A DNA stretch of 64,000 bases, from assembly GCA_029964075.1 (NCBI GenBank), contig CM057147.1, positions 17,133,513 through 17,197,512 of the forward strand, given 5' to 3'. Below are positions 13,727 to 58,535 of the stretch, piece after piece. The translations under genes and the position numbers were made by a program. The stretch comes from Patiria pectinifera. Its lineage: Eukaryota; Echinodermata; Asteroidea; Valvatida; Asterinidae. Positions within the stretch are counted from its first letter, which is position 1. Every line of letters begins with the position of its first letter. The notes under the pieces are model-generated. The model did no database searches, had not been told where the DNA came from, and was given only the letters and a program-made list of their open reading frames with translations.

Positions 13727-14322
13727 CTTAAAGGTAGAGTTGACTATTTGCAGCTATCCGAAAATAAGCGACCAAATTATTGTTAAAAAGTTTCCTTGGT
13801 TTAACGATAGTAATGGCACTAAACTTCCTGCGAAACTATTCCTTCTTGCATGCTGTCACTTTGAAGAAATCTATTGAAGGTCATTTCCAAAGATGTGTCA
13901 AGTGAGACATTTTTGGAAATTTCTGTTGTAGTTGGTTTGTAATTGGGCGAAATCCTAAATGGGTGTAAAGTGTCGACACGACGTGCAGTTGCTATGATCT
14001 GTCAGTTCAGTGTGTGACATCATGTGCTACAATCGGCTGAATAAGAATCATGTTCCGCATGCTGATTTTGGGACTGTGTTACCAGAGGGCGCTATTCTAA
14101 ATATGACTCTACGAGAGGGCGCTATTCTAAATACGACACGGCAACTTTTGGATCAGAAATCAAGATCCAGAATATTGTGTTTTCTCGAAAATATACAGCA
14201 TTCACGGAGCTAAAAAGCTCATCAAGTTACTTGTTAAGCCCCCGTCTTAAAATTTTGAGCACTTTTGTTGCTTCAAACGAAAAAAAAATGTACAAATGAC
14301 AAACGGTCCATTCTACCTCCAA
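13727..14322. mobile_element. MITE related to 61,521-61,990, containing the duplication boundary
   Basis: It starts AAAGGTAGAGTTGACTATTTGC and ends CAAATGACAAACGGTCC.., an imperfect inverted pair. The interior shares 'CAGCTATCCGAAAA', 'TATTGTTAAAAAGT..CTTGGTT', 'TTTTGGATCAGAAATCAAGA' and 'TTTTGTTGCTTCAAACGA' with the element at 61,521. A 28-bp direct duplication (GAGGGCGCTATTCTAAATA) lies inside. The homology between the two large blocks starts at 14,295, inside this element. Confidence 0.65.
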
Positions 14323-16660
14323 AAGGCACTCGAAGGGATGTAAATACATGCAAGTACACTGTTGAGTTCATCTCCATCATGTATTATAGTTACATGTACT
14401 TTAAGAGTCGTAATAAGATTCCAACAAGTAACAATTTTAAAAGCATTGGAATACCCATAAAGCTTCCCACCAAAAAAATATCTGAGAATGAGGGATAAGA
14501 ATGTCTTTGAGCTTTTTGCCCAAATATCACATTTTTGTTTTAAGAACAGGAACCAGTTTCTAAACCCAAAAACTGCTAAGCACACACCATTGTTTGTCTT
14601 GATAAAACTGTCACCTGTTACCACAAAATGAGCCTAAAGTCCGAAATTGCCATTTTGCAGTACAGTGGGACAAAGCCAAAATTTGAAGGGGTGGTCGATT
14701 TTTGGTTTTTAAGTAAACCATAATCTTTAAGTGCCGTTTGACCTTTCTCCATTTTGTTGTTGTTGTTCTGTCAAACATCTTTGAACCTATTTCATCCTGT
14801 CTATTATAAGTAGACTGTTCATTCACTGTAACACAACTGCAGGATTTGTCAATGCCATTTTCTCACAAATCCGTTTTACAACTTCAAGTAGGTTGGTGGT
14901 CTATATTTCCGTTACTGACCTCGGTACCCATTAATGATGTATACCACTGGAAAGCTCTTGATCTGCAGCATTAAGATATATAGATAAAAAAAATTCCTCC
15001 CGCGATTTTCCAAGATATCAGCATTATGTATCAAAATAGCAGCACCGCCCCTGTATTATGAGAATGGGGCTTACAAAGTGCTGCCATTAATATTTTGCGC
15101 ATGCGCAATCCATACTTTTGTGTGTTCTCAAAACGCAAAAAATCTCAGCGAAACGTTCCAAAGCCCCGGCCTCAATTTCCAAGACCTTGGAAAGTATCCC
15201 AAGGAGTGGCCAGACTGGACCTGGGTTGCTCTAGATACTTTTTTCTGGGATCTGCACCATTCTGGAACTTCAGTCTCAAACAGGTGTTCACTAATTCGCT
15301 CGTACCCCCCACCCTGCAAACAGGATGCTGGGATACTCTGGATGAGCTTCACAGAATCTTGTGAAGGAAGTGGCCTATGACCTATGTATAAAGCATCTGG
15401 CTGCAGCTGTTCAAGACCACAGTTAGACAGTGTGCGCAAATGCTATCCGAAAATTTCACAAAGAATTGCGCACATTCTATACCGGATGGGATTTCTGTTC
15501 CATTGCGGACCATGTGGACAAAATTTTGAGCATCGCATAATGCAATCCGACCGTTCGTGATTCGAAACGGAGCCTGAGCGAGTGACGGGAATTGTAAATT
15601 TACAACACAGATAAGTTTTACAGAATTTCCGTACATTATTACGCTTTTTCAACGAGAAAAAAAAAATCTCTAAACTGGAATAAAAGAGTAATGAATCAGT
15701 TTTAACGGCAGTTTCAAACCTTGCAGAGACATGACCTTGCAGAGTCATGACCTTGATGACGCACAGGTCACTGGTCACGCAAAATCCAACCAATCAGAGC
15801 GTGAATTCATCAGAGTATCCCAGCGTCCTGTTTGCAGGGCGGGGGGTACGAGCGAAGTGTTCACTAATTGATTCTAGCTCCCACCATGCTTACCTACAAG
15901 TCTGTAAATCACGTCTTCCAGCCAAGTACAAACGGTGAAGGGTTGGGCATTTAGTTGTGGTCATAATCTATGTATGTAGGATTATTTATAAGGTATTTAT
16001 TTAATTGAATGAAATAGCTTAATACTTATTTGAAAGCAATAATTATTTTTAAAATAAATATTTAAATTGCATGTAACTAGTAGGACCATTTATGTTAATC
16101 TAAAATTATTTTACGAGATCAATTGTAGTCAAATTATTAACATTCTTTAATTAATCTAAGTTCTCAATGCATGATAGAAGAGGTATACAGTGTCTTGCAT
16201 GTTTTGTCTTTAAATTTACTAAGTTAATTCTGGTCGTTAAACAAATTATGACAAAAGCTTTAGTCAATGCAAAACTAATTACATGTCGCCATAAGTGGGA
16301 GGGACTAAGAATTTGATTGGCTGTTGGGAACCTGTTGCCCCTCCCCTTATGCCATCATATGGCATGTTACATGTCTTAGTTAACTTTTCCTCTTTTTTTC
16401 TTCTTCAAATATACAGGGTACAAAGGTTGCAATTCTTAAAATGTATTTGATTTAATTATTGTCAGGTTTTAACACTGCTTCAAGTCTGCTGTATACAGTT
16501 GCTGTGTAATTTTGATGTGTCAAATTTTTGAAGGGAAACTCTACTGTTTTGATCGTAAACCACGTAGACAATATTGTAGAGTAATCCAATGTCCAAAGAG
16601 GCACAATGCTTCTGCTGTTGCACACAAAAGGCGTGTGTCTTGCACACAAGGGCATGTCTT
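14323..16660. other. Intergenic, shared with 41,037-43,367; contains a long inverted repeat
   Basis: No coding sequence. An inverted pair of about 60 bp lies at 15,285-15,344 and 15,808-15,868; shared core CGTACCCCCC.CCCTGCAAAC and GGGATACTCTG. The pair is also present in the second copy (about 42,001-42,065 and 42,515-42,585). The rest, especially 15,960-16,450, is AT-rich and almost unchanged between the copies. Confidence 0.6.
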
Positions 16661-16861
16661 GCCGGCGAGGTGCGCGCCTTTCCCACGAGGTGCGCGCCTT
16701 TCCCACGAGGTGTGCGCATTGCCCAAGAGGAGCGCGCCTTGCCCATGAGGTGTGCGTCTTGCCCACGAGGTGTGCACATTGCCCAAGAGGAGCGCGCCTT
16801 GCCCACGAGGTGTGCGCCTTTCCCACGAGGTGTGCGCCTTGCCCACGAGGTGTGCGCATTG
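16661..16861. repeat. 20-bp minisatellite, about 10 units
   Basis: The unit is GCCCACGAGGTGTGCGCCTT with variants (TTTCCC, ATTGCC, GAGGAGCGC). The counterpart at 43,368-43,422 has only about 3 units, so this is a VNTR. A hAT-like element abuts its right end in this copy only. Confidence 0.85.
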
Positions 16862-18518
16862 CAGAGTTGTAATGACTCGAGTCAATGACTCGACTCGAGT
16901 CCGACTCGAGTCACATTTTTTGGCGACTCGACTCGACTCGAGTCCCGACGGGTAAATGACTCGACTCGACTCGAGTCACTGCGAGCAAATGACTCGACTC
17001 GACTCGAGTCCCTCTTCAGAATGACTCGACTCGACTCGAGGAAGGCTAATAAGACTCGAGTCCCAAAATAAAAGCAAAACTTACTTGCGAAAATATTTGC
17101 AATGACTTACGCTGCGCCGTTCGCGTTGCCAGTTTTTGTTCACGTCACGTTAATGTTCGCGAATAATAAGGGAATAAATGTGTGCTCCGGAGGTTTTTAT
17201 CACTCTGTTTAATACCACTTAGAGTCTGGGTGCTGATAATTACCCGAGCCGGAGGCGAGGGTAATTATCAGCACCCAGACTCTAAGTGGTATTAAACAGA
17301 GTGATAAATACCGACCGAGCACACATTTATTCCCATTCATAAATACCTTTTCGGTAAAAAAAGATCAAACAATTCATTCAAAAATCCTGATTTTGTTCAG
17401 CAAGTTCACTTCATGCTTTTTGAAACATCCCTCTAGCAAAATAATGGAATTTTCAGCTGGCGAGTAAGATGTAAACAACCCTTTTATGGAGATTGACGCG
17501 CGCGTAGCATGTTCTGCGCGACATGGACGCGATGTCGCGCAGAACGCACCTGGGGCGTTGCGTTTTGAATTTAGAACTATAAAATTCTGACTCGCTGGTA
17601 GTGTTGCGCATGCCTACGTGAGGACTGTGATCGTTCAACCAATAAAACGGTAAGAGGCACTGGATTTTTAGGAGTCCACATTTTATGTGACACTGGAAAA
17701 GTGTTTAAGACTGGTCTTAAACACTTTTCCATGTCTATCCATGTCTTTATCATCCGTTTAATACCGGCCACGTGACGGGCTCTCGACCAATAGGAATGCG
17801 TAAACTGTCTTAGGTATTTATGAATGTACGTTTATATACAGCGGCCGTCTGTTTCCTTCCTCCATAATGAAACAACAAACATACACCGTGTCGCGGACTC
17901 CCACCTTGTGGTTCTATAGCATGTAATGCTAAACCCGGAACCAGACTTAAAACGCATTTCTCAATCCGTGGTTTCATCATTGGTTTCGGGCGATTTTGAA
18001 GTTCTTGGTGGAACGCTGGCTAAATTCATGTCCCGATTTCACACAAAAAAATGGATACGGACGGGCCCACCTTTAAATAATCAGAAACAGTTTTGTATAA
18101 TGCAATTAGGTTTTAACGTTGTCAGCGATCAGCAAACAACAAAATCTAGACCCGAAGCCAAACCAGTTATAAGACCGAAGTTTCACATCTTCTTATCTGT
18201 GACGTGGCTGGCATTGGAAACTGTTGGTTGGGTACCATACAGCATACTTTATGTCTTTGGATTTCCGTAATAGACTGGTGCCTTGTATTCTTTCTCTCTT
18301 GTGTTTGTTGCTTTTTATTGTAATTTAGTGTTCAAATATTTGTGACTCGAATTGACTCGAGCTAAATACTTGACTCGACTCGACTCGACTCGACCACACT
18401 CTGTGACTCGACTCGACTCGACCTTGTTGACCTAATGACTCGACTCGACTCGAGTCACTTCTTTAAAATGACTCGACTCGACTCGAGTCACAAAAATCAG
18501 TGACTCGTTACAACTCTG
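16862..18518. mobile_element. hAT-like DNA transposon, non-autonomous, with hairpin-rich interior
   Basis: The ends are inverted repeats: CAGAGTTGTAATGACTCG on the left, and CGTTACAACTCTG on the right. Both ends continue into dense subterminal arrays of GACTCGACTCGAGTC (16,872-17,060 and 18,343-18,495). CAG.. ends and subterminal repeats are typical of hAT elements. The flanking octamers (GCGCATTG / AGGACATT) do not match, so no 8-bp target duplication is seen. Inside are a ~78-bp-arm hairpin (17,168-17,335), a 14-bp-arm hairpin on GTTCTGCGCGACAT (17,510-17,544) and a palindrome on GGAAAAGTGTTTAAGAC (17,697-17,733). A 114-codon open frame at 17,926-18,270 matches nothing I recognise. Absent from the second copy. 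Confidence 0.7.
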
Positions 18519-19647
18519 AGGACATTTCATTTCAATGCAATGTGTTTATCTTGAGTTTCTGTGATTACAATAACTTTGTTTACCTCGCGAACGGACAGAA
18601 GTCGGCGCGCGGTGAGCAGTGTTTGTGTAGCGCGCCCTCTTTTGGAAAGAATTGATGCATGACGATAAAATACGGAGTGCCCGGATTATCACTGCAATTT
18701 CTTTAAATTATATTACATTCATTGTTTCACGGTTTCTGTCAATTTCCACGATTCTCGTGTCAAATATCATGGTAAAATATTGGACGAAATTTCCTTTCAA
18801 TGCAATGTGTTTATCTTGAGTTATCGTCACTAATTAGCCGCGCATCTGTCCACGAAGGGAATAGGATACGTCCCAGCCAACAGTGGTGGCGCTACCCCCT
18901 GCCCCCTCCCCCTGCCCCCTCCCCCACCCCCATCCCCACCCATTCGTCTCACTGTCTGTGGCATCATTACATTTCTTGACGGTTAGGCGGCATTGTGATA
19001 TCTGCCCCATCTCTTAACATGGTCCAACTGATGACACTGTTAATCATACACATGCAATTATTTTATATCCACAATACAGATTTCATCCACACAAGACCAT
19101 TGCTGATGTAAATTCTTGCACCACAGCGGAAAATTGTGTGGTTTCTCAAGCAATGAAATTAAGAAGCTTACAAAAATTATGGTCTAGGATATAAAGAGTG
19201 ACATGACTTTATTTGCTTCCACACTCAACGACATCAAGTACAATTTGGTTTTGAGTGAGTGAATCATGTTTCTCCAAAAGGAAATGAAATAAGAGTTTGA
19301 TTCATTTCAAAACTAGATCACATGGGACACAGGAAGGTTTAGTACAGTTGTACCACACAATCACCATAAGGTATACAATTTACGGCATGTTGGACTGGAT
19401 TCATATAGCAAAATGCAGGTCATGAATTAAAAACCAAGTAAGTGATGCCGGCCGGCTATTATGCCCGACACACGTAATTTTCAGCCAAATAACTTCAGGT
19501 TATCAAGCCAGAGAGATAGCTCCATATTCAGTTCACTTCGATCTATTTCAAGACGCTGCATCGCACAAGATTTCTGCCTCTACAAAATGCCTCTATCATA
19601 TCACAGAGACCATATTACAGCAGAAAGCAGCAGAGACCGCGCAAATT
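18519..19647. other. Unrecognised intergenic block present only in copy 1
   Basis: No gene seen. Two similar stretches (CATTTC..TTTCAATGCAATGTGTTTATCTTGAGTT) occur near 18,523 and 18,785. A C-rich run lies at 18,895-18,945. The corresponding interval right of the gap (43,423-44,703) is unrelated. Confidence 0.4.
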
Positions 19648-22600
19648 GCATGATTTTGAAGATTTGGGCAAAAATCATCAATTTTGGAGAAAAAAAGTGA
19701 ATTTCATTTTTTTGGCCAATATTGAAAAAAATGCTAGGGGTTAGCCTTACATTTTTAGTCAAAATCGGCCAAAAATTGACTTTTCTCAAAACAAGGCAGA
19801 GTTCATCTGGATACAAGAGGAACACCAATCAATACTCTAACACACTCATAATTTTGAAGATTTGGGCAAAACTCCTCAATTTTTGGAGAAAACCAAGTAA
19901 TTTTTCAATTAATTTTTCGACAGAATTTTCCCTTTAATGGCACATCTGTTCAGCAATCCATTTGGAATGCGTTCAAGGGCCCTGAAGGCATCTTTCTAGC
20001 AACTTTCAAGAAATTTCATTTTTGGCCAAAATTGAAAAAAATGCAAGGTGTTAGCCTTACATTTTTAGTCAAAATCGGCCAAAAATTGACTTTTCTCAAA
20101 ACAAGGCAGAAACTTATCTGGATGCAAGAGGAACATCAATCAATACTCTTACACACACAATTTGGAAGATTTGGGCAAAAATCGTCAATTTTTGGAGAAA
20201 ACAATGTATTTTTTTTGCGATTTGTCCTTTATTTTTCGACAGAATTTCCCCTGTAACAGCACATCCGTCCAGCAATCGATTTGAAATGCGTTCTAGGGCC
20301 CTTAAGGCATCTTTCTAGCAACTTTCAAGAAATTTCAGTTTTTGGCCAATATTGAAAAAAATGCAAGGGGTTAGGCCAAAAAAAAAAGTCTCCGGTTTCT
20401 GGTATGGAGCTTGCCCCAAAAGTAGTGCGGCGACGCGGCTTTTTTTTTTTTACCTGTTTTTTTTTTTTTGCTTCAAATGTCGGCTGATGACTGCAAATGG
20501 TGCCCGACTAAACTTAGTGCAAATATATGGGAGTCCAGAGAGGCCACATCAATCTTATTCTCGATCATAACCCCGTCTAAAAACACGTTAAAATTGTGCA
20601 GCAGCAGAATTCCAGTCAAACCAGTGAGTTTGGCGGTTTTGAAACATCATCTTGTATTGAAAAAAAAACTTTTTCATTTTGCCGACGCGCATGGCTATGG
20701 CGACGCGCGCGCATACCAGAAACCGGAGACTTTTTTTTTTTTGGCCTTGGCCTTACATTTTTAGTCAAAATCGGCAAAAAAAAATGACTTTTCTCAAAAC
20801 AAGGCAGAAACTTATCTGGATGCAAGAGGAACATCAATCAATACTCTTACACACACAATTTTGAAGATTTGGGCAAAAATCGTCAATTTTTGGAGAAAAA
20901 AGGTAATTTATTAGCGATTTTTCCTTAATTTTTCGACAGAATTTTCCCTTTAACAGCACCCCCGTCCAGCAATCGATTTGAAATGCGTTCAAGGGCCCTT
21001 AAGGCATCTTTCTAGCAACTTTCAAGAAATTTCATTTTTTGGCCAATATTGAAAAAAATCAAAAGGGTTAGCCTTACATTTTTAATCAAAATCGGCCAAA
21101 AATTGACTTTTCTCAAAACAAGGCAGAAATTCATCTGGATGCAAGAGGAACATCAATCAATACTCCAACACTCATAATTTTGAAGATTTGGGCAAAAATC
21201 GTCAATTTTAGGAGAAAAAAAATTTTCTTTCTGGGACTTTTCCTTAAACAGTGTCTTGTGTCGCGACATGGAGAACAACTTGGCGATGGGCTGCAGTGGC
21301 AGTCCAAACAGAACTTTTGCCTCACTTTTGCACAGGAACGATAGTCCACGTCTACACGCTGTCTCAAAAATTAATTGGAGCATTGAATTGAATTGTGGCC
21401 AGATTATTGGTCATGATGAGAAGACAAACTAGACCGAAGATTTTGCCGAAATAGTGTTTTTCTCTCTCTAAACAGTGTCTTGTGTCGCGACAAGTAGCAA
21501 AACTTGGCGATGGGCTGCAGTGGCAGTCCTAACAGATCATTTGCCTCAATTTTGCACAGGAACGATAGTGCACGACGACACGCTATCTCAAAAATTAATT
21601 GGAGCATTGAATTGAATTGTGGCCAGATGATTGGTCATGAAAAGAAGACAAACTAGACAGAAGATTTAAACGAAGTATTGTTTTTCTCTCTCAAACAGTG
21701 TCTTGTGTCGCAACACGTAGACAAACTTGGCGATGGGCTGCAGTGGCAGTCCAAACAGAACTTTTGCCTCACTTTTGCACAGGAACGATAGTCCACGTCT
21801 ACACGCTATCTCAAAAATTAATTGGAGCATTGAATTGAATTGTGGCCAGATGATTGGTCATGATAAGAAGACAAACTAGACCGAAGATTTTGCCGAAATA
21901 GTGTTTTTCTCTCCCTAAACAGTGTCTTGTGTCGCGACAAGTAGCAAAACTTGGCGATGGGTTGCAGTGGCAGTCCTAACAGATCATTTGCCTCAATTTT
22001 GCACAGGAACGAAAGTGCACGACGACACGCTATCTCAAAAATTAATTGGAGCATTGAATTGAATTGTGGCCAGATGATAGGTCATAAAAAGAAGACAAAG
22101 TAGACAGAAGATTTAAACGAAATATTGGTTTTCTCTCCCTAAACAGTGTCTTGATTCGCAACAAAAATGTGTCGAAACCAAAATTGAAAAAAATGCAAGG
22201 GGTTAGCATTACATTTTTAGTCAAAATCGGCCAAAAATTGACTTTTCTCAAAACAAGGCAGAAATTCATCTGGATGCGAGAGGATCATCAATCAATACTG
22301 TAACACACATTATTTTGAAGATTTGGGCAAAAATCGTCAATTTTTGGAGAAAAAAAAAATCCTTAATTTTCCGACAGAATTTCCCCTTTAATAGCACATC
22401 TGTCCAAGAATCGATTTGAAATGCGTTCTAGGGCCCTTAAGGCATCTTTCTAGCAACTTGCAAGAAATTTCATTTTTTGGCCAAAATTCAAAAAAAATGC
22501 AAGGGGTTAGCCTTACATTTTTAGTCAAAATCGGCCAAAAATTGACTTTTCTCAAAACAAGGCAGAAATTCATCTTGATGAAAGATGGCACATCTGTCCA

Positions 22601-25600
22601 GCAATCCATTTGGAGTGCGTTCTAGGTCCCTTAAGGCATTTTTCTAGCAACTTTCAAGAAATTTCATTATTTGGCAAATATTGAAAAAAATGCAAGGGGT
22701 TAGCCTTACATTTTTAGTCAAAATCGGCCAAAAATTGACTTTTCTCAAAACAAGCCAGCAATTCATCTCGATGCAAGAGGAACATCATTCAATACTGTAG
22801 TACACATAATTTTGAAGATTATGGCAAAACCTCTCAATTTTGGAGAAAACAAAGACATTTTTGGAGCGATTTTACCTTAATTTTGTGACGGAAATTCCCC
22901 TTTAATGGCACATCTGTCCAGCAATCCATTTGGAATGCGTTCTAGGGCCCTGAAGGCATCTTTCTAGCAACTTTCAAGAAATTTCATTTTTTGGCCAAAA
23001 TTGAAAAAAAATGCAAGGGTTTAGCCTTACATTTTTAGTCAAAATCGGCCAAAAATTGACTTTTCTCAAAACAAGGCAGAAATTCATCTCGATGCAAGAG
23101 GAACATCAATCAATACTCTTACACACACAATTTGGAAGATTTGGGCAAAAATCGTCAATTTTTGGAGAAAAAAAGGTAATTTTTTAGCGATTTTTCCTTA
23201 ATTTTTCGACAGAATTTCCCCTGTAACAGCACATCCGTCCAGCAATCGATTTGAAATGCGTTCTAGGGCCCTTAAGGCATCTTTCTAGCAACTTTCAAGA
23301 AATCTCATTTTTTGGCCAATATTGAAAAAAATGCAAGGGGTTAGCCTTACATTTTTAGTCAAAATCGGCCAAAAATTGACTTTTCTCAAAACAAGGCAGA
23401 AATTTATCTGGATGCAAGAGGAACATCAATCAATACTCTTACACACACAATTTGGAAGATTTGGGCAAAAATCGTCAATTTTTGGAGAAAAAAAAATTCC
23501 TTAATTTTTCGACAGAATTTCCCCTTTAATAGCACATCTGTCCAAGAATCGATTTGAAATGCGTTCTAGGGCCCGGAAGCCATCTTTCTAGCAACTTGCA
23601 AGAAATTTCATTTTTTGGCCAAAATTTAAAAAAATGCAATTGGTTTAGACTTACATTTTTAGTCAAAATCGGCCAAAAATTGACTTTTCTCAAAACAAGG
23701 CAGAAATTCATCTTGATGAAAGATGGCACATCTGTCCAGCAATCCATTTGGAATGCGTTCTAGGTCCCTTAAGGCATCTTTCTAGCAACTTTCAAGAAAT
23801 TTCATTATTTGGCCAATATTGAAAAAAATGTAAGGGGTTAGCCTTACATTTTTAGTCAAAATCGGCCAAAAATTGACTTTTCTCAAAACAAGCCAGCAAT
23901 TCATCTCGATGCAAGAGGAACATCATTCAATACTGTAGTACACATAATTTTGAAGATTATGGCAAAAATCGTCAATTTTTGGAGAAAAAAAAATTCCTTA
24001 ATTTTTCGACATAATTTCCCCTTTAATAGCACATCTGTCCAAGAATCGATTTGAAATGCGTTCTAGGGCCCGGAAGCCATCTTTCTAGCAACTTGCAAGA
24101 AATTTCATTTTTTGGCCAAAATTAAAAAAAAATGCAAGGGGTTAGCCTTACATTTTTAGTCAAAATCGGCCAAAAATTGACTTTTCTCAAAACAAGGCAG
24201 AAATTCATCTGGATGCAAGAGGAACATCAATCAATACTCTTACACACACAATTTGGAAGATTTGGGCAAAAATCGTCAATTTTTGGAGAAAAAAAAATTC
24301 CTTAATTTTTCGACAGAATTTCCCCTTTAATAGCACATCTGTCCAAGAATCGATTTGAAATGCGTTCTAGGGCCCGGAAGCCATCTTTCTAGCAACTTGC
24401 AAGAAATTTCATTTTTTGGCCAAAATTTAAAAAAATGCAATTGGTTTAGACTTACATTTTTAGTCAAAATCGGCCAAAAATTGACTTTTCTCAAAACAAG
24501 GCAGAAATTCATCTTGATGAAAGATGGCACATCTGTCCAGCAATCCATTTGGAATGCGTTCTAGGTCCCTTAAGGCATCTTTCTAGCAACTTTCAAGAAA
24601 TTTCATTATTTGGCCAATATTGAAAAAAATGTAAGGGGTTAGCCTTACATTTTTAGTCAAAATCGGCCAAAAATTGACTTTTCTCAAAACAAGCCAGCAA
24701 TTCATCTCGATGCAAGAGGAACATCATTCAATACTGTAGTACACATAATTTTGAAGATTATGGCAAAAATCGTCAATTTTTGGAGAAAAAAAAATTCCTT
24801 AATTTTTCGACATAATTTCCCCTTTAATAGCACATCTGTCCAAGAATCGATTTGAAATGCGTTCTAGGGCCCGGAAGCCATCTTTCTAGCAACTTGCAAG
24901 AAATTTCATTTTTTGGCCAAAATTTAAAAAAATGCAATTGGTTAGACTTACATTTTTAGTCAAAATCGGCCAAAAATTGACTTTTCTCAAAACAAGGCAG
25001 AAATTCATCTTGATGAAAGATGGCACATCTGTCCAGCAATCCATTTGGAATGCGTTCTAGGTCCCTTAAGGCATCTTTCTAGCAACTTTCAAGAAATTTC
25101 ATTATTTGGCCAATATTGAAAAAAATGCAAGGGGTTAGCCTTACATTTTTAGTCAAAATCGGCCAAAAATTGACTTTTCTCAAAACAAGCCAGCAATTCA
25201 TCTGGATGCAAGAGGAACATCATTCAATACTGTAGTACACATAATTTTGAAGAATATGGCAAAACCTCTCAATTTTTGGAGAAAACAAAGAAATTTTTGG
25301 AGCGATTTTACCTTATTTTTTTGACGGAAATTCCCCTTTAATGGCACATCTGTCCAGCAATCCATTTGGAATGCGTTCTAGGGCCCTGAAGGCATCTTTC
25401 TAGCAACTTTCAAGAAATTTCATTTTTTGGCCAAAATTAAAAAAAAATGCAAGGGGTTAGCCTTACATTTTTAGTCAAAATCGGCCAAAAATTGACTTTT
25501 CTCAAAACAAGGCAGAAATTCATCTGGATGCAAGAGGAACATCAATCAATACTCTTACACACACAATTTGGAAGATTTGGGCAAAAATCGTCAATTTTTG

Positions 25601-40511: not shown

Positions 40512-41011
40512 NNNNNNNNNNNNNNNNNNNNNNNNNNNNNNNNNNNNNNNNNNNNNNNNNNNNNNNNNNNNNNNNNNNNNNNNNNNNNNNNNNNNNNNNN
40601 NNNNNNNNNNNNNNNNNNNNNNNNNNNNNNNNNNNNNNNNNNNNNNNNNNNNNNNNNNNNNNNNNNNNNNNNNNNNNNNNNNNNNNNNNNNNNNNNNNNN
40701 NNNNNNNNNNNNNNNNNNNNNNNNNNNNNNNNNNNNNNNNNNNNNNNNNNNNNNNNNNNNNNNNNNNNNNNNNNNNNNNNNNNNNNNNNNNNNNNNNNNN
40801 NNNNNNNNNNNNNNNNNNNNNNNNNNNNNNNNNNNNNNNNNNNNNNNNNNNNNNNNNNNNNNNNNNNNNNNNNNNNNNNNNNNNNNNNNNNNNNNNNNNN
40901 NNNNNNNNNNNNNNNNNNNNNNNNNNNNNNNNNNNNNNNNNNNNNNNNNNNNNNNNNNNNNNNNNNNNNNNNNNNNNNNNNNNNNNNNNNNNNNNNNNNN
41001 NNNNNNNNNNN
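40512..41011. other. Assembly gap, exactly 500 N
   Basis: A run of exactly 500 N. The round length suggests a placeholder of unknown true size. Open frames across it are artefacts. Confidence 0.99.
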
Positions 41012-41036
41012 AATGACAAACGGTCCATTCTACCTC

Positions 41037-43367: not shown

Positions 43368-43422
43368 GCCCGCGAGGTGCGCGCCTTTCCCACGAGGTGT
43401 GCGCCTTGCCCACGAGGTGTGC
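43368..43422. repeat. 20-bp minisatellite, about 3 units
   Basis: Short allele of the array at 16,661-16,861. It runs directly into unrelated sequence at CCCACGCGCACGCTTGGG. Confidence 0.8.
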
Positions 43423-44703: not shown

Positions 44704-47040
44704 TCTAGCAACTTGCAAGAAATTTCATTTTTTGGCCAAAATTTAAAAAAAAATGCAAGGGGTTAGCCTTACATTTTTAGTCAAAATCGGCCAAAAATTG
44801 ACTTTTCTCAAAACAAGGCAGAAACTCATCTGGATGCAAGAGGAACATCAATCAATACTCTTACACACAAAATTTTGAAGATTTGGGCAAAAATCGTCAA
44901 TTTTTGGAGAAAAAAAGGTAATTTTTTTAGCGACTTTTCCTTAATTTTTCGACAGAATTTCCCCTTTAACAGCACATCCGTCCAGCAATCGATTTGAAAT
45001 GCGTTCTAGGGCCCTTAAGGCATCTTTCTAGCAACTTTCAAGAAATTTCATTTTTTGGCCAATATTGAAAAAAATGCAAGGGGTTAGCCTTACATTTTTA
45101 GTCAAAATCGGCCAAAAATAGACTTTTCTCAAAACAAGGCAGAAATTCATCTGGATGCAAGAGGAACATCAATCAATACTCCAACACTCATAATTTTGAA
45201 GATTTGGGCAAAAATCGTCAATTTTAGGAGAAAAAAAATATTTCTTTCTGGGACTTTTCCTTAAACAGTGTCTTGTGTGGCGACATGGAGAACAACTTGG
45301 CGATGGGCTGCAGTGGCAGTCCAAACGATAGTGCACGACGACACGCTATCTCAAAAATTAATGGAAGCATTGAATTGAATTTTGGCCAGATGATTGGTCA
45401 TGAAAAGAAGACAAACTAGACAGAAGATTTAAACGAAATATTGTTTTTCTCTCTCAAACAGTGTCTTGTGTCGCAACACGTAGAAAAACTTGGCGATGGG
45501 CTGCAGTGGCAGTCCAAACAGAAATTTTGCCTCACTTTTGCACAGGAACGATAGTCCACGTCTACACGCTATCTCAAAAATTAATGGAAGCATTGAATTG
45601 AATTATGGCCAGATGATTGGTCATGATAAGAAGACAAACTAGACCGAAGATTTTGCCGAAATAGTGTTTTTCTCTCCCTAAACAGTGTCTTGTGTCGCGA
45701 CAAGTAGCAAAACTTGGCGATGGGCTGCAGTGGCAGTCCTAACATATCATTTGCCTCAACTTTGCACAGGAACGATAGTGCACGAAGACACGCTATCTCA
45801 AAAATTAATTGGAGCATCGAATTGAATTTTGGCCAGATGATAGGTCATGAAAAGAAGACAAAGTAGACAGAAGATTTAAACGAAATATTGTTTTTCTCTT
45901 CCTAAAACGTGTCTTGATTTGCAACAAAAATGTGTCGAAACCAAAATTGAAAAAAATGCAAGGGGTTAGCCTTACATTTTTAGTCAAAATCGGCCAAAAA
46001 TTGACTTTTCTCAAAACAAGGCAGAAATTCATCTGGATGCAAGAGGATCATCAATCAATACTGTAACACACATAATTTTGAAGATTTGGGCAAAAATCGT
46101 CAATTTTTGGAGAAAAAAAAATTCCTTAATTTTTCGACAGAATTTCCCCTTTAATAGCACATCTGTCCAAGAATCGATTTGAAATGCGTTCTAGGGCCCG
46201 GAAGGCATCTTTCTAGCAACTTGCAAGAAATTTCATTTTTTGGCCAAAATTTAAAAAAAAATGCAAGGGGTTAGCCTTACATTTTTAGTCAAAATCGGCC
46301 AAAAATTGACTTTTCTCAAAACAAGGCAGAAACTCATCTGGATGCAATAGGAACATCAATCAATACTCTTACACACAAAATTTTAAAGATTTGGGCAAAA
46401 ATCGTCAATTTTTGGAGAAAAAAAGGTATTTTTATTTAGCGATTTTTCCTTAATTTTTCGACAGAATTTCCCCTTTAACAGCACATCCGTCCAGCAATCG
46501 ATTTGAAATGCGTTCTAGGGCCCTTAAGGCATCTTTCTAGCAACTTTGAAGAAATTTCATTTTTTGGCCAATATTGAAAAAAATGCAAGGGTTTAGTCTT
46601 ACATTTTTAGTCAAAATCGGCCAAAAATTGACTTTTCTCAAAACAAAGCCAGTAATTCATCTCGATGCAAGAGGAACATCAATCAATACTGTAGTACACG
46701 TAATTTTGAAGATTATGGCAAAACCTCTCAATTTTTGGAGAAAACAAAGTAATTTTTGGAGCGATTTTACCTTATTTTTTCGACGGAAATTCCCCTTTAA
46801 TGGCACATCTGTCCAGCAATCCATTTGGAATGCGTTCTAGGGCCCTTGAGGCATCTTTCTAGCAACTTGCAAGGAATTTCATTTTTTGGCCAAAATTGAA
46901 AAAAATGCAAGGGGTTAGCTTTGCATTTTTAGTCAAAATCGACCAAAAATTGACTTTTCTCAAAACAAGGCAGAAATTCATCTGGATGCAAGAGGAACAT
47001 CAATCAATACACTAACACATGTAATTTTGAACATTTGGAC
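44704..47040. repeat. Two-family satellite array, short copy
   Basis: Order A (44,704-45,245), B (45,250-45,935, three units, one internally shortened), A (45,936-47,040). This matches the right-hand end of the 19.6-27.8 kb array; the left-hand A-B-A portion of that array has no counterpart here. Confidence 0.88.
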
Positions 47041-49959
47041 AAAACTTTTGAAAATTCACCTGGATGCAAGAGGAACCATTTGGCCAAAAAAAATTGACTT
47101 TTCTCTAAACGACGCAGCAATGACTTTTGATAGAAGGAGTGTATCATTCAATATTCAGAGTACCATTATTTCGAAGATTAGGGCACAAATACTCGATTTG
47201 AGTAAAAAAAAATCATATTTTTCACTGCTGTTGACCCAAGTTTTCGACGCATTGGGCCTGTCTTATGGCACATCTGTCCAGAAATCGAGTTGGAACGTCT
47301 TTTAGAGTCCCTTGGGCATCTTTCCTGGAAGTTTGGCGCAATTTCAATTTTTGGCCAAAATTTAATAAATTGCAAGGGGTTAGCCTTACTTTTTTCATCA
47401 AATTTGGCCAAAAAATGACTTTTCTCCAAACGACGCAGAAATGACTTTTGATAAAAGGAGAGTATCATTCAATATTCACACTGCCATTATTTTCAAGATT
47501 CGGGCACAAATTAAAAAAATTAAAACAATTGCAAGGGGTTGAATCTTACAAGTGTCTTCAAATTTAGCCCCAAAAATGAATCGATGGAGAAATGACTTTT
47601 GATGGAAGGAGAGTATCATTCAATTTTCAGACGATATACTTGCTTTTGAAGCTGTTAGGCTCTGGTTAGGTTGTTCTTTACAAAAAAAATACAGATGACG
47701 TCATAAAATATTAAAGTTCCCTCTAGCGGCAGGTTGAAAATGTTTCAAATGAATTTTCAGTTGATGTCTGTGGTGAAGTTTGATATGATCTTTTTGCAAA
47801 CAAGACCTGTGTGCGAAAAAAAATTGATGACGTCTTCAGACCGGAAGTAACCATGAAAAGATCTTTAAACTTAAACAAAATCAACCACAAGATATAATCC
47901 AGATTTGTTTGCTTCAAAGAGCACAATTAGCATAGCTCTCTAGCTTTCTGGTAATGACGTCACGATGACGTCATCAAGTATCAGACTACAAGCAAGCAAA
48001 TATTTCTAGATTTACTCTGTGAAAATCAATGTAAAATCAACCGTGAGAGATCTCATTTTGCTTTTTACGGGATTGATAGAATAAAACAGAATAGCGTTTT
48101 CATTTTTTTATATTTTTGACCCTTCCTTCAGGTCCAAACCGGTAGTGCCTTATAATTTGAAAGTGGAAAAAAAATTTAAACTTGCTTTCAACGACGTTAG
48201 TCTCTGGCTAGGTTGTTCTTTGGAAAAAAAATACCGGTGACACCATAAAATGATACAGCGCCCTCTAACGGCAGTTTGAAAAATGTCAAAGTGAATTCTA
48301 AATTGATTATTGTGGCAAAATTTATGGCATTTGAAAGACATGCGAGCCCGACCAATCTGCGTTTGTAACTCAACAAACGCCAATCTCTAGGTTTTTCTTG
48401 GCGTTTCCAGCATCTACAAAGACAAAACTTCAAACAAGTCAATGTAACAATATTTGCCATAAAATACTACCCCCCCCCCCCCAATCCATCCATTTCTAAA
48501 AATTGCAGCAAAAACCAATGTTGTAGATATTCCCTTTGAATTAATGCCAGCGCATAATGTTTGCCAAAAAATTACATAAAAAACTAGTTCTAACACAGGA
48601 AAATAACTGATCAAAAGAACTCAGAAATGCCTCCTGCAACGTTTTATTCTGCCCTTTCCAGATCCAGTCGGTAACTAAACTGTTTAGAAAGTGCATCATT
48701 ATTGTTGAGTATTTCAATATTAAAATATAAGACCAATAAATAAAAGCATTTTGCAACAGAAAGCCAACCCAAACATAATATTCACCCAAATCCACAACAA
48801 TCAGTTGTAATTAAAATGTTAATGTGTTAAATTTTAACATTTCGGCAAACACGTGTATGTATTTGGCTAAACATTAGCCATATGTGGAAACGTTGCACAG
48901 CCGTACAGCTATTAATTAATGCGTCAGGTTTATCTTTTCGAAATCTCTTTCTGAAAATCAGATCTTTGCCAGAAGAACCATTAGGGGCAGGACGCTAATG
49001 ACTAAAAACTAATTAGGGACCTTTTTGTACTGTGCAAATCTGGAACCGGCATTTTTGTCGCAAAGATGTTCGCCGTGTAACTGAACACTAGCATTTGGTA
49101 CGGGGTACCTATTGACATTATTGATATCAAGTATTGACTCCAAAAACTGGCTCAGTTTCAAACTCACACCTATTTCACTTGAAGTCCATGAAGCAATCCA
49201 GTTTTATAAGCTGAATCCTCATAATCAGATATCAAGTAAAACAAAAAAAAAGAACTATATAGGGAAAATATGGTGGGATCTAAAGATATAAAATTGTAGT
49301 TTAGTGGAATCTCAGAAAAGAATTAGAAAACCTACCCATACACATTTCAGAACTATAGTCAAACATGAATAATCTGTATAGTGGGAGACAGAATTGTTAC
49401 TTTTTGACAACAGCAACAATTTTTGGGACATAGGTTTAAAAAAAAATTGTACAATGTACACCGTATTTACATTTTGCCCAAAATGATAACAAAGTTAACA
49501 TCACAGCAGAAATCAAAACAAACACAAACATAAGAAACTTATACATTCAAGAGAAACATAAAATATTCATTTCACATATACATCTTTGCATTGCTTATGT
49601 TACAATGTGATTAAAAATTGTTCAGACAATGTCGATTTAGATAGTGCTTGGTAATTATTGCAGATGTCCAAAGGGTCATTTTCATAAATTATGCCGGTCA
49701 AAATTTCTGACCTCAACATCATATACTGAAAAAAGTGTACTTATGAATGTGTTTTGCATACTTCTGAATATGGTAATTTTGTAAAAGTGAAAATTAATAA
49801 ATACATGTACAGTGTGTTTCAAAAAAAAAGCAAACATAATATAACGTAATGCCAGACTACAATGTGTAACCAACATAGATAATATAGTTATTATCACCTC
49901 ATACTAAAAATGTTTAGCATGTAAACATGTTAACAAACTGAAAGCAAGAAAGTGTTCAG
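47041..49959. other. Satellite edge and intergenic counterpart of 27,771-30,610
   Basis: 47,041-47,645 are degenerate A-like units. The rest follows copy 1 closely. A 64-bp insertion absent from copy 1 lies at 48,347-48,410 and contains self-complementary GCGTTTGT / ACAAACGC and GGCGTTT pieces. Confidence 0.55.
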
Positions 49960-50146
49960 AATGGACCGATCCAGTAAGCTCCGCCCAGTGCGCACGTGGG
50001 CAAATTAACACGTGCTCCTCTCCATTGTCACGCTGCATTTTCCTTCCGCGCGCATCATACGCGCGCGCGTGCACGCACGTCGGACATAAATCACGGGTGT
50101 GATTGGTCAGAACACCATGGGGCGGTGCTTACTGGATCGGTCCATT
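49960..50146. mobile_element. 187-bp MITE, AATGGACCGATCC ends (copy 2)
   Basis: Positional counterpart of 30,611-30,797, with the same ends and length. Confidence 0.85.
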
Positions 50147-50655
50147 GTGGTGTTTACTCACTAAACACGTTTTGTGTAGGCCAGGCAAATATCCACACAG
50201 AGGCAATTAGGCTACCTTTGTCCCAATGCCTAAAATTGAAATCTTGGTCCTATGGTCAATTTAATCTCTCATAGACAATTACTCGTAACTTTTTTTCAGA
50301 AATTATCAGATTTGGACGTTTGATGTCTCATTTGAAAGTGGCAAGGCGTATCTTTCAAACCATACCTATATTATCCACGTTGGTTACACATTATACCTCT
50401 GGCATTCCGTTATACTTTGTTTGCATTTTTAAAATATTTTGTTTGCAACACTCCACTCCACTGTGTCACTGTGTTGTGAAAATGTGTACAAATTAACAGT
50501 CAAAGCTGATCGAGGGTGTACTGTTTTCTGAATATTTCTGAATGCAATGTCGCTTTTTTTTCTATTCCCATTCAAATACATTTGAAATCATCTACAACGC
50601 AACTAAATGGGCACCAGTGTTTAGGGTAAAAGTGAACAGTTTGTATTTGACAAAA

Positions 50656-50909
50656 TGTGATGCGATCAAACTAAATGAGTCGTTTGTCGGGAATTTTTAT
50701 TTGGAGATACAGGCCAAAATAGGGCCACTTCATCACATCACTTTATGACATCTCTTGGTTTTCCAACTTTCATAATTTTTGAACTAAAGATGGTATCAGG
50801 ATGCGGTTTTCACAGCATTAATGCTGAGATGGTGCTCTTTTCAAATCTGTAATAAAACATTTTTTTGACCCGGGTCGACAAACGACTCATGCAGCTTGAT
50901 CGCATCACA
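50656..50909. mobile_element. MITE, 'TGTGATG' family, copy 4
   Basis: Positional counterpart of 31,309-31,562, same length. Confidence 0.8.
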
Positions 50910-53028
50910 AATACTGACTTCAGTAAAACGTGACAATTGCGAACATGCTCCTTAAAGTGAAAATCCAAGTGCAATTAGACCCTGCATTTGCACATACTGT
51001 CATGTGGTTGGTTACCACTGCTTAATATTGCGGCATAACCATACTGTCCCTTTAAGAACTATTTATAGCATGTGACCGGATTGGAGAGTTAAATATAAAT
51101 TGCCCATGCGAAACTGATTTCCTCATGCAATGTCATGTCACTAAAGGACTGCAGCACTTGGAGGAATTGAAATACTTATGAGCCACCTTAAAAAGTAGGG
51201 ATGTCCGTAAAAAATTGGTTATAAAGTATTTGTGAGGCGTTCTGGCCAAATGAAACGAACTGGGCAGCAGAGGTATTTGGAAAGAGACTAAAATTCTCCT
51301 TACAATATTGTTTGTTGCCCTCAAATTCTCTGCTATAAGAGCATTTTGAGGGCCATGACTTGCGGGTTTGTAAAAAAAAAAAGCCATGAAAAGGACTGTG
51401 AGCCTGTATTTCTGTGAAATTTGATTGACACCGTGCTCTAAAATTGCTCCATTTTGCAATGGAGTGTAACCATCATTTTATAAAAACGCGATGGGCTTCA
51501 GGACTCCTTTTAGCTGTGATCATCTTTGAAAGGAAATTTCTCCCAAAAGTCATTGAATATCCCTTCCCCCCCCCCCTAAAAAAAAAATTGAGCAGAAAGT
51601 GAAAGATGATGAAATAAGCTTTAACTTAATGTGTCACTGGGGTCTATGGCGGCTTATTTACTGGTCTGCAACCAAAAGGTTCTGGCATTTGTCCTCTTTT
51701 GTTATGGGTTCTGAGCAGGAACTACAGAGGGCGCTCTGTGGTTGACAGCGCCCTCTTTTGTTGACAAACGGAGTCCATGAAAGACAGTCTAGGAAATAAC
51801 ATATTTTCTATTAGTGCTGAGGGGACTGGTTTTCAAATGAACACATTTGCCAGATTTTGGACCAATCGCTTCGCTTACATAAGTTGTGACAGATGATAGG
51901 AACCACTAGTTATGGTGCGAGCATGGGACAAGCATGCACCTTAGACAAAGTTACCGATTATGCTTTTTAGTGGGGTTATTTTATTGAGCACACCATCCGC
52001 AATGTGAATGATACGTCTAAAATGATGAGATGCAGTTATGTGGGTTCAACAAAATAACCAGACAAAAAATTGAATGTATTTGGCAATGTATTCCAAACCA
52101 CATTACCTCCTGTACTGTCATTTCTGTTGGTTCATAATATTAGTTATCCCTTGAGCTCTAGTGGAACACAGAATATTGCAGTGCACTAGATTTTCCGTGT
52201 TCCACTAGCGCGAGTGGGACAATGAATTTATCTTCAAGCAAACTTGACGCACGGTAAAGATGGAACACGCACACTGTACACAAGCCTTTCAGCCGTTATC
52301 CTTTACACGTGCGTGTTGCACAGCACGGCACGCGCATAATAGAATAGTGCAATATGCGGAGTGCGGTATCGACCGTAACACGGCTTGTTGCCATGGATCG
52401 ACCAATCAGGATCGAGGATTCAAGTTTACTTGAAGATAATGACAAATACTGCCCTTTATGGGATCTGTCCTACAATTTCAAGTGTAGCACTTACTCCAGG
52501 CCATTTTCTTTTCAGTCTATAATGGTCCGCTACGTAAATCATGTCTTGGGTATATAACTTTGTAAAATAGGGATTCCTCACGGAGGAGAGTATATTTATC
52601 TAACAGTCATTTACCTGAGTGAAAACGCACAACAATCACTCTTTTATTTCGGCTAATCACACCGATACCCAAGTCCACACACGCAAACATCATTACCACA
52701 CCATGCACTTCTGACTATCAAACCACGGGGATGCTTAACATCTGAGCAACATTTCAAGGATAATGCTAAATATTGTTAGGGTTCAGGTCACGTCTAAACC
52801 AAGCTATGTCTCTGTCTTCACCAAAAGGCGCCAATGACTTTTAGAAGGCTTCCAAGTCAAAATCCCTAAGCTTTGGCAAACTTTTCTGCAGAAATTCACG
52901 AAAGCAATAGGAAATTTTGAAAGATATTAATAACTGCGCTGTCCTTTATGAATGCGAACACGAAATTGCGACGTCAGATCAAGTTTTTACGCTGCAAATT
53001 CGCAGAAGTTGAACATATCTCAACCCTG
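50910..53028. other. Intergenic counterpart of 31,563-33,670
   Basis: No gene. Contains the TTATCTTCAAG MITE at 52,228-52,439. A C10/A9 run near 51,567 replaces a shorter sequence in copy 1. Confidence 0.5.
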
Positions 53029-53673
53029 GCAAATTTTGCAGTGAATGCTTTGTGACGTCAAATTCGCATCGCATTCGCACGAAGTCTAAACCGGCCTCTG
53101 GCAAATTTTGCAGTGAATGCTATGTGACGTCAAATTCGCATCGCATTCGCACGAAGTATAAACCGGCCTCTGCCAAATTTTGCAGTGAATGCTTTGTGAC
53201 GTCAAATTAGCATCGCATTTGCACGAAGTATAAACTGGCCTCTGGCAAATTTTGCAGTGAATGCTTTGTGACGTCAAATTCGCATCGCATTCGCACGAAG
53301 TATAAACCGGCCTCTGGCAAATTTTGCAGTGAATGCTATGTGACGTCAAATTCGCATCGCATTCGCATGAAGTATCAACCGGCCTCTGGCAAATTTTGCA
53401 GTGAATGCTATGTGACGTCAAATTCGCATCGCATTCGCACGAAGTATAAACTGGCCTCTGGCAAATTTTGCAGTGAATGCTATGTGACGTCAAATTCGCA
53501 TCGCATTCGCACGAAGTATAAACTGGCCTGTGGCAAATTTTGCAGTGAATGCCATGTGACGTCAAATTCGCATCGCATTCGCACGAAGTATAAACCGGCC
53601 TCTGGCAAATTTTGCAGTGAATGCTTTGTTACGTCAAATTAGCATCGCATTCGCATGAAGTCTAAACCGGCCT
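53029..53673. repeat. 72-bp CRE minisatellite, 9 units
   Basis: Same unit as 33,671-34,457. Nine units: eight have intact TGACGTCA, and the last reads TTACGTCA. The plus frame is interrupted by TAG in two units (CAAATTAG), so no conserved plus-strand protein is indicated. Confidence 0.9.
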
Positions 53674-54131
53674 TAACTGTTGGTGTCCCCACATAGTTCA
53701 GGCATCACTTGACACAAGAAGCTTAGGCTACCTTGGTATTTATTGCCACACAATGAAGTTGAGTTATGTTTGGCTGTTAAACAAGAGAAGACCTACACAG
53801 AGGAAGCTATGACAATTGAAATCTGTACCTTATTGCATGGCTAGTAATGGCATTGCTCAAAATATGAGCTGCCAAACAACGGGACACTATAAAGACAAGT
53901 CCCCACTTCCACCATCATAACTTTGAAAGGAGGGCGCAGGAGCCAGTGAGCACAACCAAGGGACACAATGACTGGTACCCTGCTCCATCTATTATAACTT
54001 TTAAAGGAGAGCAGGGGGGAAAAAAGGGGTGGAATGACCTAGTCTTTGTAACGGAGTCTGATCTAGTGAACAAGGGAGTACATTTGTTAGCGGCTGGAAG
54101 GGAGACTAGTTGAGCTCCCCGAGGCCAGACG

Positions 54132-57100
54132 TTATGAGTCAATGTCTTGGGCATAGCAAACTGCTGAGATTAGTACCGTGATGTCATCTGGTTTACCTCC
54201 TGGGGAGAAAAAAAGACAAGAAAAACCAGGGTCAATCCCAAGAAGTGGAAAGAGATACCTGGGTAGATGTAGTGTTGTAAATGAGTACATCACAAGTGAT
54301 CACAAGTAATCACAAGTCCATCACAAGTGATCACAAGTCCATCACAAGTCCATCACAAGTGATCACACTTGTGATGGACTTGTGATCACTTGTGATGGAC
54401 TTGTGCACAAGTCCATCACAAGTGATCACAAGTCCATCACAAGTGATCACAAGTCCATCACAAGTGATCACAAGTCCATCACAAGTGATCACAAGTCCAT
54501 CACAAGCGATCAAAGGTCCACAAAAACCAGACGTTGTTGCGGAGCGTGCGGGCTCCATTGCACAACGGATGATCTATCCAGACTAACTTGTAATGGACTC
54601 TAGGACTACAAAGCACTTCCTACAACTGAGTTATGGGAATAAGTAAATTGGCCAGCCTTCCTAAATGCACCTGCACTTGTCACGCTTGATGAACGGACTG
54701 CCCCAGCAAGGTTCCCGAGGTCCCAGGGGAACAGTCTGTGACACACACACACACACAGTTTCCCTGCATTTCACTTCCTCATTGACAGGGTTATTTATGA
54801 GGGAACTCCCCAGCTATGACCATGCAATGACTGAATCACTGTCGGCTTGGTCATGAGACACTGACGAGTCTGTGCACTGATTGGCTGGGCCTGTGCGGAT
54901 CACAAGGCTGAACATTTCGGCTCAATCTTAGAATTGAGGGATTTCCTGTTACCATCTTTCCTCACAGTTAGTGAATCACATAATGTAGGAATAACTGAAA
55001 GATGGGGGTATGTACACGTACGTGTACATTGTCCACCCACAGAAATATATGTGACACATGCATTTACCCCAACTCCCTAACGTGATTTACTGGGAACCAT
55101 ACCCATCCTGGCAAATTCCAGCACCATATGGGAAACTGCACACACATATTTCTGACTTAGATTCTGGAGGTGTGCCAACCCAATGTAAAAGACTATTAGT
55201 GTAGGGGTACTGTATCCATCCTGACAGATTCCAACAAAACATGCCGTTGGGGTTTGATGGGTTGAGTTCTGTTAGGGTTATTACATTTGCATTCTACCAC
55301 AAACACGAGTTCATTCACAGTTTTAGCTGAATTATGGAATTCCGTTATGAAATGATCCGTAGTGTCTGTTTCAGATTCTTGTTATTTTAATACTGAAACA
55401 TGTTTAAAAAACAAACCCCAAAAAACCCTGAAAAACCCAAGTACTGCAAAATTGAATGCTTTTTCAAAACCTGGTAAAACAAATGGAAAAATGATACTTA
55501 ACCCTAACCATCCCAACCCTTCAAAATCCAACTATACGTTTTGTTGGAATCTGTTGGAGTGAGTGCTGCACTAGTAAACTGATTATGCTTTACATGGGGT
55601 CAGACATACCACCATAATCAGAGGCCAACAGTTTGGGTGATGGGTTTTCATGTATGTAAGAGTGAAGAAGGTTCCTAGTAAATCAAAACAACAACAGTAC
55701 AACTATTTTGTTCCGAATCATCCAAATATGAAAAACAAGGATATGTTTGTTGCGTTCAGGCCAACCCACATAAGCAACCCCAGCTTTGTCTTGGTACCCC
55801 AAATCTAAATCGGTGTGAATACAAACCTAAGAACTCCATTCCGTTTGCTCTCGCGTGCTCCGCAAACGGCGACATGTAGTTGGGGTCATAAGCAAACTCC
55901 CTGGCTCGTTCTGCTATGGCGTTGACCGCACTTTGTATACTGCTAATCGTCTGATCCTGAAAGAAAAAAACAGGAAGAATACATTAGCGGCTTAACGAAC
56001 GTCATCCCACTGAACACAACAGGAACAAATCCAACAAACTGTGATTGTGCTCTCCTGTTGAAAGAATGGATGCGTGAGTAATTTGCATTGATAAGCCAGT
56101 TTGGTATTTCAAATGGGACTATGTTTTCAACCTAACCCCACTCACATCCCGGGTTTCATTCCATTCCCCATCCTACGTATCACCCTATGTATCACACTAC
56201 ATATCACCCCGCATATCACCCCATGCCTCTACCATCCCTTACCCTTTGTGCAAACTTGATATTGCATATTCTTTCCAGAATAAGACACTCTGGAATGTTA
56301 TTTAACAATCCATCAAGATATGCATTTACACTCAGTCCTGTTCCCCACCATGTCTCACCCTGTTCCCCATCCTATGTATAACCCAATGCCTCATCTTGTG
56401 TCTAACCTTGATTTTGCCTGTGTCTTTCAGATTTGTACACAAGTGCGTTTCCACCTGCCTCCCATCCTTAACACTATAAATCTCAGCCCATCCCCACCCC
56501 ATTCCTCACTCTATGTCTCACTCCATCCCTCACCACATATCTCACCTTGGTTTTACCTATTTTTTTCAAGATGAGACTCTCTGGCATGTTCAGGACTAAG
56601 TCTCCTGCCTCACCCCATTCCCCACCCCGTGTCTCACCCAATGTCTCACCCAGTTCCCCGTCCTATGTCTTACCCCATCCTTTATCCTGTATCTCACCTT
56701 GACTTTGCCTATTTCTTTTAGGATGAGACTCTCTGGCATGATATCAAACAGGCTGTCTGTTGCCATCAGGACTAAGTCTCCCGCCTCACCCCTTTCCCCA
56801 TCCAGTGTCTCACCCCATTCTACACCCTGTGTCTCACCCCATTCACCACCCTGTGTCTCACCCCATTACCCACCCTGTGTCTCACCCCATCCCTCACCCG
56901 GTATCTCACCTTAATTCTGCCTCTTTCTTTTAGGATAAGATTCTCTGGCATGTACATTGTATTCAAACAGGCCATTTGTGGCCATCAGGACTAAGTCCCC
57001 TACCTCACCCCATTCCCCATCCCGTGTCTCACCCCATTCCTTACCCTACGTCTCGCCCCATTCCTTGTCTAATATCTCACCTTGATTTTACCTATGTCTT

Positions 57101-58535
57101 TCAGGATGGGACTCTCCGGCATGTTGTCAAACAGGCCGTCTGTGGCCATCAGGACTCAGCCTCCTACCTCACCCCCCTCCCCACCCCGTGACTCACCCCA
57201 TTCCCACCCTAAGTCTCACCCCATCCCTCACCCGCTATCTCACCTTGATTTTACCTATGTCTTTCAGGATGGGACTCTCTGGCATGTTATCAAACAGGCC
57301 GTCTGTGGCCAACCGGACTATAAAGTCTTCTGCCTCACCCCTTTTCCCACCCTATGCCTCAGCCCATTCCCCATCCTATGTCTCACCCAATCCCTTGCCC
57401 GGTATCTCACCTTGATTTTGCCTATTTCTTTCAGGATGAGACTCTCTGGCATATTGTCAAACAGGCCGTCTGTGGCCATCAGGACGATGTCTCCAACTTT
57501 GATGGGGACACTTGAACTCGAAGCTGACTCGGGACTGAAACCAAACCAAACACACTTCATGAAAAAATTGACCCCAGATGCCAAGTCTCTATTTTCAAGT
57601 CAAGTCAAGCGTTTCCTAAATAAGATATTGTTCATTGTGACTTTCGGTTTTTCATTTACTCAATTTGTTTTTCTTTCACAAAACCAAGCATAGAAATTGG
57701 TAACTTTCTGAAAGCTGTGTACTTTGATTCAATTTGCTGGTGATGCTGTGCACACCTTTTTTCTTCAAAGAAAGCCTCTGTTTTTTTTTTCTTAGAAGGA
57801 AATATTCGGGTGGATTTTTAAGGTTGTGGAGGGGTTAGGGTTAAAGGTACATTGTAGATACACGATCACCTGCCGCAAGAGGGTGTAATCCCAACAAATC
57901 ACAATCACCCACAGAACGCTACCACAACAACATCTTGGGAATCTTGAAAAAACTCCTCTTGGAAAATGGAGGAAAACTGGTGCGGATGCGCTACTTCTGC
58001 AGGCAAATATGGTCTATGTTTGGTCGCACATGTACTACATAAAACCAAAGAGCTACCATGAAGTTGCACACAAGCCTGGTAGCATCTTGCATTTTAACTG
58101 GCTGAAATTTCAGAGTTTGGTTAGGAGCCAATACGCAAGGTGTTGAAGGCGCGCTGCATACATTTAGGCAGAACAGGTGTGGGCGCATGACATCACCGCT
58201 TCAAGACTTTTAAGACGTTGTTGTGCTTGTGGGTAGCAGTTCATTTTAATACCACCCTCTTTCAGCAGGTGATCGCGTATTCAATATATAACAACAACGT
58301 CTTGACCAAGACTAGCTTACAGGTTGATAAACACCATACCTGTCACTGAGTATTGTGTTCAACCCTGGGGGCGCTATTGAGAGCTGGAAGGGAGTGTTGA
58401 AGTAATGTTGCTGCTCCTCCGACCGGTGCACAACTTTACCCCCTCGGACGATCAGGAACCCCGAGTCCCCTAGGTTGGCCGAGTGTAATGTCTTGCTCTC
58501 GTTATCGATGACGATGATGCATGCTGTGCTGCTAC
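54132..58535 (-). CDS. PPTC7: PPTC7, PP2C-type mitochondrial protein phosphatase, 3' four exons
   Basis: PPTC7 is the animal relative of yeast Ptc7, a metal-dependent Ser/Thr phosphatase of mitochondria. Exons, in transcription order: 58,535-58,340, 57,534-57,411, 55,956-55,827, 54,199-54,132 (TAA). All junctions are in phase and GT-AG. The first carries [28 protein letters not shown] and [21 protein letters not shown]. The second has [20 protein letters not shown], whose Asp in TDGLFDN is a PP2C metal-site residue. The third has [15 protein letters not shown]. The last has [10 protein letters not shown], with the final conserved Asp of the fold. As remembered, human PPTC7 is about 304 residues; these exons are the C-terminal ~172. 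The N-terminal exons, including the mitochondrial presequence, must lie beyond 64,000: I found no GVADGVGGW-type exon in 58.5-64 kb. Confidence 0.95.
54284..54517. repeat. 21-bp tandem array with an inverted block
   Basis: Same ATCACAAGTGATCACAAGTCC unit as 35,070-35,545, but about 54,366-54,404 reads in the opposite orientation (ACTTGTGATGGACTTGTGAT), flanked by normal units. This makes an internal palindrome. It lies in the last PPTC7 intron. Confidence 0.88.
54550..55826. other. Last PPTC7 intron, remainder (copy 2)
   Basis: Contains a (CA)n run near 54,741 and the 5' part of the TTACCCCAACTCC element (from about 55,062). The MITE empty site is at 55,251-55,258. No coding sequence apart from the flanking exons. 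Confidence 0.6.
56250..57330 (-). repeat. Tandem array of decayed PPTC7 exon pieces with splice donors
   Basis: In the intron directly downstream of exon 57,411-57,534, seven partial copies of that exon's 3' half follow at spacings of about 140-210 bp; their donor ends lie near 57,241, 57,078, 56,907, 56,695, 56,543, 56,403 and 56,250. Read on minus, the nearest two encode [20 protein letters not shown] and [20 protein letters not shown], then IGKIK and GTGAGA. The 56,695 copy is also open ([15 protein letters not shown]). The 56,907 copy is frameshifted and 56,543 has an internal deletion. None carries the exon's 5' part or its pyrimidine-rich acceptor. They look like non-coding by-products of tandem duplication. 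Confidence 0.9.
57535..58339. other. PPTC7 intron between the two upstream exons
   Basis: No features recognised apart from T-rich runs near 57,780. Confidence 0.5.

Follow-up and report, generated by a model that had tools for sequence, protein, structure and literature searches.

The window, a 64,000-nucleotide stretch of Patiria pectinifera DNA (contig CM057147.1), contains two neighbouring copies of one block, which very probably represent a heterotype false duplication, that is, two alleles of one locus assembled in series with no real gene duplication. Copy 1 (14,295–40,511) is the end of the left contig and runs up to a scaffolding gap of 500 N (40,512–41,011), the only gap in the window. 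Copy 2 (41,012–57,108) is the start of the right contig. We infer that copy 1 and copy 2 are allele 1 and allele 2, respectively. The first-pass annotation had already suspected a false duplication from unmerged allelic contigs. This reading is upheld by the 500 N that join the contigs where they overlap, by a sampled piece of the block present twice and sampled flanks present once, by a divergence of 4.3% against a published heterozygosity of 5.16% and by the assembly route, for which no purging step is described in the available parts of the genome report (PMC10511450).

Comparison of the two copies by BLAST gave eight pieces, each with 87.3–98.3% identity, which form one collinear chain running from 14,295/41,012 to 40,511/57,108. 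The homology is flush with the gap, as its first base in copy 2 is the first after the gap and the last base of copy 1 is the last before it. The earlier description of collinear near-copies, with the second beginning right at the end of the 500-N gap, is therefore correct. Since the homology is bounded exactly by the gap, the end of the left contig overlaps the start of the right contig in a suffix-prefix manner. The gap is the only one in 264 kb, comprising the 64-kb window and 200 kb of flank. Mock gaps placed in the flanks showed a same-strand overlap of at least 1 kb in 0 of 49 cases, which rules out chance similarity of the copies. Copy 1 spans 26.2 kb and copy 2 spans 16.1 kb, the greater length of copy 1 being due to extra VNTR units and insertions.

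Both broken edges of the overlap lie in repeats, as the first-pass annotation had also noted. At the right edge, copy 1 ends inside a minisatellite or partial-exon array in a PPTC7 intron. At the left edge, the homology begins within a dispersed repeat (14,118–14,303), taking in its final 9 bases, and this repeat has further copies within the 264 kb examined. Such repeats could mediate a real tandem duplication, covering the 3′ end of PPTC7 and the intergenic DNA next to it, and a gap placed over the junction of that duplication would yield the same L-D1-gap-D2-R pattern. Real tandem repeats do exist nearby, as a 3.2-kb head-to-tail repeat of 93% identity lies gapless within one contig (contig positions 17,049,573–17,056,441). 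However, copy 1 and copy 2 are separated by N only and no sequence joins them, and we regard a real duplication at this locus as very unlikely.

Divergence between the copies was measured over six aligned blocks that exclude the main VNTRs. We counted 450 substitutions in 11,411 aligned sites (3.9%), or 4.3% once an identical terminal stretch of 896 bp is set aside. The individual blocks differ by 7.1, 2.0, 2.6, 4.8, 7.5 and 1.5%, and the divergence is patchy, ranging from 0 to 15.2% per 250-bp window. Because the copies differ at around 4% of sites, they are not recent, and the recent tandem duplication that had been offered as an alternative is rejected. The measured 4.3% is at the level of the heterozygosity of the individual, 5.16% in the published report as available to us (PMC10511450). 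A real duplication, by contrast, would have to be, by coincidence, as old as typical allelic ancestry.

The copies also differ in larger features. The region 16,719–25,397 of copy 1 is mostly not alignable in series with 43,426–44,702 of copy 2. Around 1.8 kb with a tandem array of ~320-bp units (37,298–39,132) is found in copy 1 only and is absent from copy 2. Copy 1 alone also carries a 477-bp element with terminal inverted repeats (36,283–36,759), bordered on both sides by an 8-bp duplication, GGTCTGAT. The corresponding empty site in copy 2, near 55,250, has a single GGTTTGAT, giving a clean, transposon-like presence/absence difference. With its 8-bp target duplications, this element may be hAT-like. 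The combination of substitutions, VNTR-length changes and transposon presence or absence is as expected for a pair of alleles in this animal.

The right-hand gene is a PPTC7-type phosphatase, in agreement with the name it was first given. Its joined exons match a PP2C-type phosphatase structure (6ae9, E 1.5e-15) and the Pfam families SpoIIE and PP2C, both above their cut-offs. PPTC7 lies on the minus strand, with its 5′ exons to the right of the overlap (58,315–58,605) and beyond the window. A further exon-like PPTC7 stretch is found past the window at contig positions 17,201,913–17,202,371 (CM057147.1). An intact exon just past the overlap (57,411–57,534, minus strand, boundaries inferred) is present in the contig of copy 2 only. 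The 3′ exons of copy 2 are in line with the 5′ exons and the gene reads on through copy 2, while copy 1 has only the penultimate and last PPTC7 exons. The penultimate exon occupies 39,229–39,358 in copy 1 and 55,827–55,956 in copy 2, with boundaries inferred from splice signals in copy 1 and likewise inferred in copy 2. The coding part of the last coding exon, including the stop, occupies 34,927–34,994 and 54,132–54,199, respectively, and all four stretches are on the minus strand. Splice signals and reading frame are intact in both copies of these shared exons. The duplicated exons had been said to differ only synonymously, and indeed we find one such base in the penultimate exon (39,248/55,846) and none in the last.

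Were the duplication real, the complete PPTC7 gene would be followed downstream by spare, unspoiled 3′ exons, which could serve as an alternative terminus. The lack of any amino-acid change in these supposed orphan exons argues against a real duplication, weakly, as around 200 coding bases are concerned. Copy 1's "orphan" exons most likely represent the other allele of PPTC7. To the left of copy 1, family searches with two exons gave only weak coiled-coil matches, and the name GOLGA3 is that of the first-pass annotation. The Rfam scan of the window gave no matches at gathering score, and no tRNA genes were found in the window.

The end of copy 1 differs in character from the rest of the overlap. 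The only difference between its last 896 bp (39,616–40,511) and 56,212–57,108 of copy 2 is a single T in a homopolymer that lies ~20 bp from the gap. The longest run of exact identity here is 877 bp, and the second longest between the copies is 260 bp. The preceding 483 bp contain 20 substitutions and one 2-base indel. Under independence of sites at 4.3%, a stretch of 877 identical bases would have a probability of 2e-17. However, alleles share ancestry in blocks, and this value is thus suggestive of an end from the same haplotype. The left contig may therefore finish with 0.9 kb from the haplotype of the right contig, forming a small homotype overlap. A real duplication would require a separate gene conversion to explain a perfect 877-bp run at a contig end.

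This near-identical end would also suit a purely homotype false duplication, in which one haplotype was assembled twice through read errors, and the overlap is close in size to the reported read N50 of 21 kb. However, the remainder of the block differs by 4.3% substitutions and by insertions with an empty site, far above the error rate of 0.00066 given in the accessible part of the genome report (PMC10511450). Copies identical save for sequencing errors are found in the last 896 bp only and not over the block, and we consider a homotype origin of the whole exceedingly improbable.

Copy number was assessed in the whole genome sequence (613,548,705 bases in 1020 contigs), with the best 40 candidates scored per search. 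One piece was sampled from the block and one from each flank. Among the best 40 candidates, a 1.6-kb piece of the block (51,100–52,700) has two full-length matches, both in the window and 97% alike, and no third full-length copy elsewhere in the genome. Its other matches among these candidates are pieces of up to ~360 bp with 71–93% identity. The left flank (339–2400) and the right flank (57,086–59,700) each have one full-length match among the best 40 candidates. Thus, in these samples the block is found twice and its flanks once. A 3.5-kb piece of an unplaced scaffold, C403, showed no full-length second copy among the best 40 of 10,658 candidates, so this single case lends no support to unplaced scaffolds being haplotigs left over from the assembly. 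The length of C403, exactly 25,000 bases, looks like the result of a cut introduced by the scaffolding software and not like the natural end of a contig.

We compared the locus to the published description of this assembly and to published false duplications, in the portions of each source available to us. The genome was assembled from Nanopore reads with NextDenovo, NextPolish, Juicer and 3D-DNA (PMC10511450), and joins of 500 N have been reported for other 3D-DNA assemblies (PMC10320752, PMC6795482). False duplicates in the accessible text of PMC9516828 are mostly separated by gaps and occur at raised heterozygosity, in contrast to true duplicates, and the same association of a 500-N assembly gap between the copies on one scaffold is found here. 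Like the false duplicates of PMC9516828 and PMC8081667, as far as these are available, the locus shows diverged, probably allelic contig ends that follow one another across a gap, with part of a gene doubled. The heterozygosity of Patiria pectinifera, 5.16% (PMC10511450), is higher than the 0.22–0.95% of the three genomes in the available text of PMC9516828. Those audits (PMC9516828, PMC8081667) applied read-depth, linked-read and k-mer criteria, whereas the locus here is judged from the assembly sequence.

Duplicated contigs lying end to end are described in the available part of PMC8081667, together with a case that combines heterotype and homotype duplication in a figure legend. The locus resembles the homotype false duplications at contig boundaries in that source, since the final 896 bp of the left contig are a nearly perfect repeat of sequence in the right contig. 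The 896-bp end is, however, shorter than a read and is continuous with the long diverged overlap. According to the accessible genome report, BUSCO duplication is 20 of 954 (2.1%), and false duplication is therefore not pervasive in genes, which counts against the false-duplication reading (PMC10511450). The same portion of that report gives a k-mer genome size of 426 Mb and an assembly of ~615.36 Mb in 22+1458 scaffolds, a wide mismatch, and yet BUSCO duplication is just 2.1% (PMC10511450).

We propose that the heterotype false duplication would have arisen as follows. In an individual of Patiria pectinifera with high heterozygosity, the locus between the coiled-coil gene (GOLGA3 in the first-pass annotation) and PPTC7 would have been assembled as two alleles in two neighbouring contigs, their ends overlapping by 16–26 kb, or about one read length. 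The alleles, differing by substitutions, VNTR length and insertions, would have stayed unmerged, and Hi-C scaffolding would then have put the contigs one after the other, separated by a spacer of 500 N. It is almost certain that the repeat holds both parental versions of a single locus, and it is thus ordinary, with no extra partial gene to be counted. More generally, adjacent duplicates across a 500-N gap in a very heterozygous genome should not be taken as gains of genes or exons. Read as two alleles, the locus would instead offer a local view of the variation within one animal, with a patchy divergence of 0–15%, changes in VNTR length and the presence or absence of a transposon.

In the contig of copy 2, the intron that follows the intact PPTC7 exon (57,411–57,534) contains an array of seven tandem units (56,255–57,321, minus strand), each a partial copy of the exon's 3′ portion. 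The matching array in copy 1 (39,659–40,511, minus strand) has six units found, the last of which is cut by the contig end. The array units have splice-donor-like ends and are mostly more decayed the farther they lie from the intact exon. One unit keeps an open 13-residue reading.
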